From NCBI GenBank assembly GCA_003265685.1, contig QJOU01000028.1:1-64000 (forward strand): DNA of 64,000 nucleotides. The letters are read 5' to 3'. Source of the stretch: Piscinibacter caeni. Its GTDB lineage: Bacteria > Pseudomonadota > Gammaproteobacteria > Burkholderiales > Burkholderiaceae_C. The notes below the pieces were generated by a model. The model had not been told where the DNA came from. It ran no database searches and worked only from the letters and a program-made list of their open reading frames with translations. A program made the translations under genes and the position numbers. This document shows positions 25,140 to 26,520 of this stretch, in pieces; position 1 is the stretch's first letter; every line of letters begins with the position of its first letter.

Positions 25140-25168
25140 TTGACCACGCGCATCGATGCTGCGACACT
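25140..25168 (+). promoter_or_regulatory. Possible sigma-70 promoter for the RsgA-type leader transcript
   Basis: TTGACC at 25140-25145, a 17-base spacer, then GACACT at 25163-25168. The -35 matches five of six consensus bases, the -10 only three. It would start a transcript near 25175, making a leader of about 255 bases before the GTPase start. Confidence 0.4.
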
Positions 25169-25181
25169 GCGCGCCTTCGAA

Positions 25182-25201
25182 CGAGGCCGGACTCGGCCTC
25201 G
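25182..25201 (+). promoter_or_regulatory. Leader hairpin 1 upstream of the short ORF
   Basis: Perfect 7-bp stem (25182-25188 with 25195-25201, six-base loop) lying between the possible promoter and the Shine-Dalgarno of the 13-residue frame. Confidence 0.4.
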
Positions 25202-25230
25202 CATCCCAACCCGAACCGAGGAGGTGCCCG

Positions 25231-25272
25231 ATGAAGACGACTGATCTTGCCCTCCTTGCGGCCGCCGCCTGA
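25231..25272 (+). CDS. Putative 13-residue leader peptide
   Basis: ATG at 25231 to TGA at 25270-25272 encodes MKTTDLALLAAAA. It has the best Shine-Dalgarno of this region, GAGGAGGT at 25218-25225, five bases before the ATG. Directly after the stop comes a C/T-rich, G-poor stretch (25273-25320) and then two perfect hairpins before the GTPase gene. The layout fits a leader ORF controlling the downstream gene, possibly through Rho. It is too short to prove coding by sequence alone. Confidence 0.5.
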   Translation: MKTTDLALLAAAA

Positions 25273-25356
25273 CGCGCCCTCCGGGTTCCTCTCTCCCGTT
25301 TCCGGTCGAGCTTCCCGCCGCGCGCGCACGCCGCGCCGCCGCCGTCTGCCTTCGTG

Positions 25357-25404
25357 CCCGGTGCCCTGCACCGGGTGATGCGTGTCCGCGCGCTGCGCGC
25401 GGAC
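25357..25404 (+). promoter_or_regulatory. Tandem perfect hairpins before the RsgA-type GTPase
   Basis: Hairpin 2: 8-bp stem, arms 25357-25364 and 25368-25375, three-base loop. Hairpin 3: 9-bp stem, arms 25384-25392 and 25396-25404, three-base loop. GGACC at 25401-25405 inside the 3' arm of hairpin 3 can alternatively pair with GGTCC at 25418-25422, just before the start codon, giving mutually exclusive folds. No T-tract follows. Confidence 0.5.
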
Positions 25405-25431
25405 CGGACGACTCACGGGTCCTGCTCCACC

Positions 25432-26520
25432 ATGATGAACATCGATGTCGAACCGCTGCGTTCGATGGGTCTGCAACCGGCGATCGCGCAACAGGCGATC
25501 GCGTTGGCCGCCGCGCACGGCCTGGACCATGCGCGCCTGGTGCGGCTCGTCGCGCTGCACCGCGAGACGCTGCGCCTGCACGACGGCCGCACCGAGCGCG
25601 AGGCACGGGCGCTGCCGCGCCTCGTGCGCCTGCTCGCCGAGGCCGACGACATGCTGGCCGTCGGCGACTGGGTGCTCGCCGCCGACGACGCCCACGGCGA
25701 CTGCTGGGTGCATGCGCGCGTGCCGCCGCTCACGCACCTGGTGCGGCGCGATGCCGACGGGCGCCGCCACCCGGTGGTCAGCAACGTCGACACCGCGCTG
25801 CTCGTGATGGGCCTGGACGCGGACTTCAACCCGCGCCGGCTCGAGCGCTTCCTCGCGCTGGTGCAGGGCAGCGGCGTGCAGCCGGTGATCGTGCTCAGCA
25901 AGGCCGACACCGTGCCCGACGCGGCGACGCTGTATTGCCGCATCCAGGAACTGCGCGGCCGCATGCCGGCCGGCGCCGAGATGATCGCGGTGGACACCCG
26001 CGATGCCGACTGCGTCGAGCGCCTCGCGCACCACCTGCGCGAGGGCCGCACGCTGGTGCTGATGGGCTCCTCCGGCGCAGGCAAGTCGACGCTGACCAAC
26101 ACGCTGCTCGGCGCGGCGCTGCAGGACACCGGCGCGGTGCGCGAGAGCGACGGGCGCGGCCAGCACACCACGACCGCACGCACGCTGTTCCGCCTCTTCG
26201 GCGGCGCCTGCGTGATCGACACGCCGGGGCTGCGCGCGCTGCGGCCGGATGCCGACGCGGCCGACGTGGCCGCGACCTTCGACGACATCGCGCGGCTCGC
26301 GCCGGCCTGCCGCTTCCGCAACTGCGCGCACCAGGGCGAGCCGGGCTGCGCGGTGCGCGAGGGGGTCGACGACGACCGGTTGCGCAACTACCACAAGCTG
26401 CTGCGCGAGGCGCGCCGCGACACCATGAGCGCGCTCGAGCGCCAGCAGCAGGTGGCGCTGTGGAAGGCGCGCGGCCGCGAGGGCCGCACGCGGCTCAAGA
26501 TGAAGCGCGGCGAGTCGTGA
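25432..26520 (+). CDS. rsgA: RsgA/YjeQ-type circularly permuted GTPase
   Basis: A 362-residue GTPase of the family that helps mature the 30S subunit. The circular permutation is visible: G4 (SKADT) near residue 155 precedes G1 GSSGAGKSTLTN near 213 and G3 DTPGLR near 264. It has the N-terminal OB-like part (VGDWVLAADD...) and the C-terminal zinc knuckle CRFRNCAHQGEPGC near 300. Either of two tandem ATGs (25432, 25435) may be used; no good Shine-Dalgarno is present there. The leader is unusually long and structured. It might be a second RsgA copy; the rest of the genome would tell. Confidence 0.88.
   Translation: MMNIDVEPLRSMGLQPAIAQQAIALAAAHGLDHARLVRLVALHRETLRLHDGRTEREARALPRLVRLLAEADDMLAVGDWVLAADDAHGDCWVHARVPPLTHLVRRDADGRRHPVVSNVDTALLVMGLDADFNPRRLERFLALVQGSGVQPVIVLSKADTVPDAATLYCRIQELRGRMPAGAEMIAVDTRDADCVERLAHHLREGRTLVLMGSSGAGKSTLTNTLLGAALQDTGAVRESDGRGQHTTTARTLFRLFGGACVIDTPGLRALRPDADAADVAATFDDIARLAPACRFRNCAHQGEPGCAVREGVDDDRLRNYHKLLREARRDTMSALERQQQVALWKARGREGRTRLKMKRGES

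Follow-up and report, generated by a model that had tools for sequence, protein, structure and literature searches.

The 64,000 nucleotides (nt) of Piscinibacter caeni DNA analyzed here, hereafter the window (contig QJOU01000028.1 of assembly GCA_003265685.1, positions 1 to 64,000 of the forward strand), include at 25432-26520 a gene for a circularly permuted GTPase of the RsgA type, preceded by a leader in which a short upstream open reading frame (uORF) follows a strong Shine-Dalgarno sequence (SD). The GTPase belongs to a group of paralogues labelled RsgA2 in this report, and the leader is most simply read as a translational attenuator, a uORF switch, of this second RsgA, a reading to which a probability of about 0.7 is assigned. 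The reading draws on the recurrence of the uORF and its promoter among Burkholderiales and on the coevolution of two long-range helices: helix A, which joins the 3' end of the uORF to a downstream element, and P1, which closes on the start of rsgA2.

The rsgA2 leader of the window

The features of the locus, with the kind of evidence for each, are as follows.

25140..25168, + strand: promoter, -35 TTGACC at 25140-25145, 17-nt spacer, -10 GACACT at 25163-25168; read from the sequence
25182..25201, + strand: 5' hairpin of 8 base pairs (bp), loop GACU; fold
25218..25226, + strand: strong SD of the leader ORF, GAGGAGGTG; sequence
25231..25272, + strand: leader ORF (uORF) of 13 codons, MKTTDLALLAAAA and stop, ATG at 25231, TGA at 25270-25272
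25257..25271, + strand: helix A, 5' strand, the 3' end of the uORF; coevolution and fold
25304..25317, + strand: P1, 5' strand, GGU 25304-25306, GAGC 25308-25311, CCC 25314-25316, with G25317 as a possible extension
25327..25342, + strand: helix A, 3' strand, at the site of an element with consensus GCGGCCGAC in relatives; coevolution and fold
25357..25375, + strand: hairpin P4, 8 bp, loop CCT, exact; sequence and fold
25384..25404, + strand: hairpin P5, 9 bp, loop CTG, exact; sequence and fold
25416..25431, + strand: P1, 3' strand, GGG 25417-25419, GCUC 25424-25427, ACC 25429-25431, with C25416 as a possible extension
25432..26520, + strand: rsgA2, RsgA-type circularly permuted GTPase, paralogue, 362 aa; TIGR00157 143 bits, Pfam RsgA_GTPase 156 bits

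Much of this layout had been described in the original prediction. Its possible promoter at 25140, its strong SD with a 13-codon ORF, its two perfect hairpins of 8 and 9 bp with three-base loops and its weakly initiated GTPase gene (the ATG at 25432 lacks a good SD) are all borne out, whereas the 5' hairpin that it gave as 7 bp has 8 in the fold. The stretch after the uORF stop, said to be C-rich and G-poor, is C-rich (25273-25333 holds 30 C, 17 G, 12 T and 2 A, and its C minus G lies at the 99.6th percentile among 60-nt stretches of the window), but 17 G in 61 nt is not strikingly few. A generic sigma-70 scan reported no site, and no intrinsic terminator was found. A GC hairpin resembling that at 25182-25201 was noticed by eye in Piscinibacter relatives.

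In the fold of the window's free leader, SD bases 25218-25224 are joined to 25251-25257 (from the last part of codon 7 through codon 9), and 25258-25271 to 25327-25342, a segment that deviates from the GCGGCCGAC consensus and, in the alternative state, is partly taken up by the stem P2. The original prediction had suggested that part of hairpin 3 can pair beside the rsgA2 start codon; the pairing conserved there is P1, between 25304-25317 and 25416-25431, which in the window reads GGU-C-GAGC-UU-CCC with GGG-UCCU-GCUC-C-ACC and abuts the AUG.

RsgA2, a second RsgA

The GTPase had been taken for the ribosome-assembly factor RsgA, and this holds for its type, but the genome encodes a better-scoring RsgA on contig C1, which is taken as the housekeeping copy, and the gene at 25432-26520 is a second RsgA. 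A maximum-likelihood tree of 25 RsgA2 proteins (from Burkholderiales, other Pseudomonadota and Lactobacillales) and 19 other RsgA proteins, labelled as housekeeping by the author, separates the two sets by a branch with 100/99 support, beside which lies one long row, L286, flagged in a warning of the tool (loci are referred to by L numbers); in this tree the window's GTPase does not group with the RsgA proteins taken as housekeeping. The closest named relative found is in Piscinibacter defluvii (Betaproteobacteria, Burkholderiales, Sphaerotilaceae), with 98% identity of the GTPase.

The hallmarks of the RsgA-type superfamily are present, namely the RsgA_GTPase domain, the P-loop, DTPG, the G2-loop His and the C-x4-C-x-H-x5-C motif, and G215, K218, D263-G266, H245, C293, C298, H300 and C306 are invariant in 17 aligned rows. 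The predicted structure (mean predicted local distance difference test score, pLDDT, 82) finds RsgA structures as its best matches, the alignment with RsgA chains spanning about 310 columns. As to an N-terminal OB (oligonucleotide/oligosaccharide-binding) domain, Pfam gives no N-terminal RsgA domain at E 0.01, and the model has strands at 35-106 with high pLDDT.

Distribution of RsgA2 is patchy: it was found in 85 of 399 genomes of the family (E <= 1e-60), in 25 of 399 searched across the order (E <= 1e-45; the last six matches, at 33-37% identity, were left out of the leader counts), in 54 of 398 across the phylum (E <= 1e-50) and in 6 of 148 genomes from the order to which a Lacticaseibacillus record belongs, the protein of that record serving as query (E <= 1e-70). 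One orthologue in the genus of the window (L012, G005:C1:2313344-2314425) is broken across two frames with its leader ORF intact, the split being either a sequence error or real decay.

Recurrence of the uORF and its promoter

A fixed rule (ATG, 8-30 codons, AGGAG or GGAGG before the ATG, 60-450 nt upstream of rsgA2) finds a uORF in 105 of 112 distinct Burkholderiales rsgA2 leaders. Applied to dinucleotide shuffles over 50 rounds, the same rule yields a mean of 1.34 and never more than 4; it picks out 3 leaders of the 112 when the reverse strand is read, and one locus among 19 other rsgA loci. Excluded before the 112 were counted were other rsgA loci (L015, L016, L022, L024, L031, L033), loci of other phyla (L057-L063), a contig end (L151) and loci of low similarity (L157-L162). 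Examples of these recurrent SD-led ORFs are MNTTDIAPLAAGA, MEQADRVALLLAGCLSAQRR, MRHSDIAVLSAA and MKTFDLALLSATA. Among the leaders that fail the rule, L048 and L154 carry a comparable ORF farther upstream (-485 and -579), L052 has one of 31 codons, and L156 has MHQPDTALRSAA under a laxer rule. Upstream of the uORF, TTGAC with a spaced NANNNT is found in 66 of 73 representative leaders as against 0 of 73 reversed sequences.

In L048 (Inhella proteolytica) about 264 nt bounded by the inverted ends GGCCTGTTAACACTACGC...GCGTAGTGTTAACAGGCC separate the uORF, at about -485, from the remaining leader and seem to be an insertion. In L044 (Caenimonas koreensis) a tandem repeat of CCCGCAAGGTGATC-like units lies between the uORF and the AUG-proximal part.

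Use of the same leader elsewhere was sought with the pattern AGGAG..ATG..GAYMTTGCC, which gave 28 matches in 26 of 250 family genomes, 14 of them at rsgA2, and no evidence of another use was found among these; of the 14 matches away from rsgA2, 10 begin long ORFs (at least 127 codons) and 4 short ones (12, 13, 21 and 27 codons). The four short SD-led ORFs (L252, L254, L259 and L264, with 27, 13, 21 and 12 codons) have the start M-x-x-x-D-[I/L]-A in common.

What is conserved within the uORF looks like RNA rather than peptide. The ratio of nonsynonymous to synonymous change (pN/pS) is 0.88 for codons 2-8 and 1.43 from codon 9 to the end, in 27 non-overlapping pairs and without a significance test. 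Such values near 1 speak against an arrest peptide, and the codon-level conservation for which the original prediction had proposed to look was not found. Peptide-level conservation as the cause of the recurrent leader peptide was therefore rejected, pN/pS being near or above 1; a magnesium-sensing, mgtL-like leader was also considered, and the missing peptide constraint bears on it as well. The peptides do follow a pattern, M-x-x-x-D-[L/I]-A..S-A-A, whose S-A-A codons coincide with helix A.

A single codon position stands out. CTT or ATT occupies codon 6 in 48 of 87 unique uORFs (CTT in the window), whereas no other position has these codons in more than 7 of 87. Both are rare in the coding sequences of 16 rsgA2 genes, where 12 of 641 Leu codons are CTT and 15 of 205 Ile codons are ATT. 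With 62 of the 87 unique ORFs passing the helix-A match and 44 of those having CTT or ATT among codons 4-9, 36 of the 44 have the start of helix A 11 or 14 nt past the first base of that codon. A ribosome with this codon in its A site would have its leading edge approximately where helix A begins.

Coevolution of helix A and P1

Helix A is formed by the uORF 3' end and an element 65-120 nt before the rsgA2 AUG. The last uORF codons have the consensus CTG TCG GCC GCC TGA, the complement of the element GCGGCCGAC, which is exact in 21 of 88 rows. The helix tests drew on 109 leaders with an ORF, from which 13 were dropped for an uncertain ORF or start or for too distant a gene (L051, L052, L054, L094, L095, L103, L104, L111, L126, L131, L153, L159, L161) and one more because it has no in-frame ATG; the remaining 95 were thinned to 73 representatives below 60% identity, and for the anchored count gave 88 distinct rows and 72 representatives. 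In a swap test, which compares the best helix in cognate leaders with that in leaders with swapped partners, ORF nt 25-45 gave z 5.8 against the whole downstream leader and z 6.4 against -120..-65 (0 of 10000 swaps each); GC-matched swaps gave z 5.06 and 5.58 (0 of 20000), and ten control region pairs ranged from z -1.7 to 2.2.

Anchoring both sides independently to the consensus gave 523 of 648 cells paired, compared with 501.3 +/- 4.5 and a maximum of 520 in 5000 swaps. In the 72 rows 80.7% of pairs form as against 77.4 +/- 0.6 when shuffled, cells with a double change number 21 against 8.3, and covariation is 0.177 against 0.128, none of these values being reached in 500 shuffles. Compensated variants include GTCGGCCAC/GTGGCCGAC (L144), GTCGGCCAT/ATGGCCGAC (L152), TCGGTTGC/GCAACCGA (L091) and GGCTTGCGGC/GCCGCAAGCC (L110). 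The best helix A of the window is shorter, TGCGGC/GCCGCG (rank 65 of 72), and is lengthened with mismatches in its fold.

The other helix, P1, links the last 24 nt ahead of the rsgA2 AUG to a strand farther upstream; in 39 of the 73 best helices this strand is 100-135 nt away from the AUG (range 50-172). The swap test gave z 4.61 (0 of 20000), and z 4.3 when GC-matched (0 and 1 of 20000 in two codings), while the control windows -48..-25 and -72..-49 were null (z 0.64 and -0.18); with RNAduplex, 16 of 73 leaders fell in the best 5%. Variants of P1 are TCCATTGA/TCAATGGA, GGGTCTGA/TCAGACCC, CGGATCGATC/GATCGATCCG and GAGATCTG/CAGATCTC.

A covariance model, R1, seeded with 8 Roseateles-type leaders with P1-P5, was run against 94 loci (370 kb). 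It found correctly placed matches in other genera in L148, L145 and L140 at E 4e-4 to 3.4e-3 and further ones in L044, L126 and L009 at E <= 0.08, the first misplaced match coming at E 0.089. Up to E 1 there were 36 matches, 24 of them just upstream of rsgA2 on the same strand (10 Roseateles-type, of which 8 are the seeds) and 12 elsewhere or on the opposite strand. RNAalifold on clade alignments gave clear structure for Roseateles-type leaders, Janthinobacterium and one three-member set and little for others, and among the leaders listed the hairpins enclosed by P1 vary widely by eye from genus to genus. In Rfam, 8 loci gave no match at the gathering threshold, and the window leader gave one match up to E 5, far under its threshold.

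The proposed switch

Because the loop of helix A encloses the 5' strand of P1 but not the 3' strand, the two helices cross and should exclude each other; mutual exclusion would thus be expected in vivo as well. Folds of the 73 leaders shift accordingly: with a ribosome at the uORF stop the expected pairs are 1.13 for helix A and 9.28 for P1, and with a stalled ribosome whose P site holds codon 5 they are 4.20 and 7.24. Relative to the ribosome at the stop, stalling lowers P1 in 52 of 73 leaders and leaves the start region more open in 48 of 73 (p 5e-4). When the 5' part was replaced by a foreign one, in 146 chimeras, stalling cost P1 0.13 pairs, compared with 1.76 in cognate leaders (p 5e-4), and added 1.35 pairs to helix A, compared with 2.97 (p 0.013). 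In the window P1 is the minimum free energy (MFE) pairing with a ribosome at the uORF stop, and the unpaired probability of 25412-25437 is 0.57 in the free leader, 0.35 with the ribosome at the stop and 0.53 with the ribosome stalled.

The directions of these folds and the crossing of the helices together lead to the proposal that rsgA2 would be off when the uORF is finished and on when it is unfinished or unstarted. The uORF, with its very strong SD, would normally be translated through to the stop codon, where the finishing ribosome would mask the last codons and block helix A; the downstream element would then join P2, P1 would close on the 24 nt before the AUG, and rsgA2 expression would be low. 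Should no ribosome initiate on the uORF, or should one slow near the rare CTT or ATT at codon 6, the uORF 3' end would be left free, helix A would form across P1, P1 would open, and rsgA2 would be translated. Stalling at codon 6, of which the enrichment there is suggestive, is a conjectural part of the scheme; the signal would be impaired translation or 30S function, and RsgA2 is probably stress-induced. The general features of a uORF attenuator are found in the leader, that is, a conserved SD-led ORF, a stem that closes the start and an alternative pairing that uses uORF sequence and would exclude that stem in the cell. With ORF, promoter and long-range stems conserved, the earlier suggestion that expression is controlled through translation of the leader ORF is probably correct.

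Several observations weigh against this reading. No sign of selection on the uORF peptide appears in pN/pS, and three of the 112 leaders (L097, L133, L134) have no candidate ORF even by the laxer rule. The SD gave weak swap signals of its own with the 30 nt after the stop (z 2.15, 186 of 10000) and with ORF nt 10-36 (z 1.49, 697 of 10000). For helix A, the number of pairs with a double change is not unusual (equalled in 134 of 500 shuffles), the count of further pair types was equalled in 11 of 500, and slid versions of the helix give similar double-change counts, at 28-53% pairing. Taken singly P1 is weak, with 9 of 73 leaders in the best 5% relative to swapped partners, and that of the window is ordinary as a single uninterrupted helix (rank 55 of 72). 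Finally, the mean change of start-region accessibility over the 73 leaders is small (0.417 to 0.441), and the MFE structure of the window with a ribosome stalled at codon 5 keeps P1 and lacks helix A, the shift being confined to the ensemble.

Alternative explanations

A variant of the attenuator, possible but regarded with some doubt, has as its input initiation on the uORF, that is, the supply of competent 30S subunits, in place of an internal stall, so that the untranslated leader would be on and the translated leader off. RsgA acts on 30S subunits, the peptide shows no constraint, and in the window helix A is present and the start region most open when the leader is free; this variant leaves the CTT or ATT at codon 6 and its spacing to helix A unexplained, and over the 73 leaders the free state has more P1 (8.49 pairs) than the stalled state. 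Control by Rho, the kind of attenuator with which the original prediction compared the layout and in which uORF translation would decide whether Rho loads on the C-rich RNA after the stop and ends transcription before rsgA2, is unlikely. The leader ORF followed by C-rich RNA resembles the mgtL and corL layout, and the C-richness of this stretch in the window and the lack of an intrinsic terminator in the scan also fit such a step, but C-richness is modest in orthologues (mean C minus G is 0.146 after the stop, 0.108 within the ORF and 0.057 over the final 60 nt) and the features most strongly conserved, the helices, concern the start region of rsgA2. These coevolving helices point to control of translation initiation, for which a Rho step is not needed; such a step may be secondary to translational repression, as is proposed for topAI in the available part of its report (PMC12121999).

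That the leader binds a ligand, as a riboswitch, or a protein, with the ORF incidental, is very improbable: the structured P1-P5 junction before the AUG in Roseateles-type leaders would suit it, but the ORF is present in nearly all leaders by the fixed rule and supplies, with its 3' end, one strand of a coevolving helix, no Rfam match was obtained as given above, and the hairpins within P1 differ between genera. Scarcely credible is a uORF kept for a functional small protein, to which the recurrent peptide pattern might point, since pN/pS argues otherwise in both parts of the ORF, the S-A-A codons overlap helix A, and the peptides look unrelated outside Burkholderiales.

Relation to known systems

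The proposed attenuator shares with the erm and cat type of translational attenuator a uORF, alternative stems and a sequestered downstream start; erm leaders, however, need an arrest peptide and a drug, whereas no peptide-level selection was found in the rsgA2 uORF. Rho-dependent attenuators such as mgtL and corL likewise have a leader ORF and then C-rich RNA, but the rsgA2 leader has coevolving helices at the downstream start codon. The nearest mechanism found is toiL-topAI of Escherichia coli, which, in the available portion of its description, has a short uORF that is itself a switch strand, a repressive structure at the ribosome-binding site (RBS) of the next gene, and relief proposed to occur upon ribosome stalling on the uORF (PMC12121999). 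The two differ in that for toiL the proposed partner of the uORF is the topAI RBS itself, so that an empty leader should be off (PMC12121999), whereas the rsgA2 uORF end is predicted to pair with an element supporting the RBS-closing stem, so that an empty leader is predicted to be on; the targets differ as well, a toxin-antitoxin gene for topAI (PMC12121999) and a GTPase paralogue here. A uORF of a DUF1127 gene in Sinorhizobium meliloti is also proposed, in the part of the report at hand, to monitor ribosome availability, but it acts by transcription attenuation via C-rich codons (PMC12218461).

Among the matches listed for literature on rsgA, engC or yjeQ with leader peptide, uORF, attenuation, paralogue or translation inhibitors there was no account of such control; in the available text of PMC6912228, matched by rsgA and leader peptide, the phrase occurs only in the reference list.

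RsgA2 beyond Burkholderiales and its possible role

Of 53 other RsgA2 matches in the phylum 48 were viewed, and by eye, with no control, 19 have an SD-led uORF and 29 no convincing one. Their uORFs, MIVLKTHPANLVKSL, MDIVTSLRARAA and MIVLVANALRCAAVRLP among them, are unrelated in sequence to those of Burkholderiales. Of six Lactobacillales-type loci four have a uORF, and in L285 and L287 the uORF contains GGAGG, with the complement between the uORF and the rsgA2 SD, a textbook attenuator layout. Helix-A-like complementarity in 23 non-Burkholderiales uORFs, chosen by eye, gave z 2.5 (211 of 20000) and only z 1.5 (1370 of 20000) when GC-matched. Judged from sequence, recurrence of the uORF outside Burkholderiales is likely, and a shared switch is only suggested. 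The Lactobacillales-type locus L288 has a possible five-codon uORF, ATGGCGGTCATTGACTAA, after an SD, below the length set by the rule. At six RsgA2 loci of one family (L163, L165, L166, L168, L170, L172) no convincing uORF was seen by eye, and several of these have similar upstream sequence.

A broader view can be put forward tentatively, with more doubt than confidence. RsgA2 may be a translation-stress RsgA that uORF switches, unrelated in sequence but of one logic, silence in several bacterial classes as well as in Lactobacillales, the uORF end competing for an element by which the rsgA2 start is otherwise closed. A rare codon read by wobble, CTT or ATT, would in Burkholderiales be placed so that a waiting ribosome just frees the switch, and the leader would be a built-in test of 30S decoding that on failure calls for a 30S-maturation GTPase.

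A second RsgA is present in many of the genomes searched, as the count for the family alone makes clear, and no account of its purpose was found. One published parallel was found: of the Streptomyces coelicolor RsgA/EngC paralogues SCO6149 and SCO5211 one, judging by list order SCO6149, is activated by WblC and raised by tetracycline, and wblC is itself under uORF control, according to the available part of the report (PMC7157823). There one of two RsgA paralogues is induced by transcriptional activation (PMC7157823); SCO6149 is compared here as an RsgA paralogue, not as an assigned member of RsgA2. If the attenuator reading is true, a ribosome-assembly GTPase would join the targets of uORF attenuators, and rsgA2 would be a sensor-controlled response to failing translation, with repair or protection of the 30S subunit under translation stress as its testable role.

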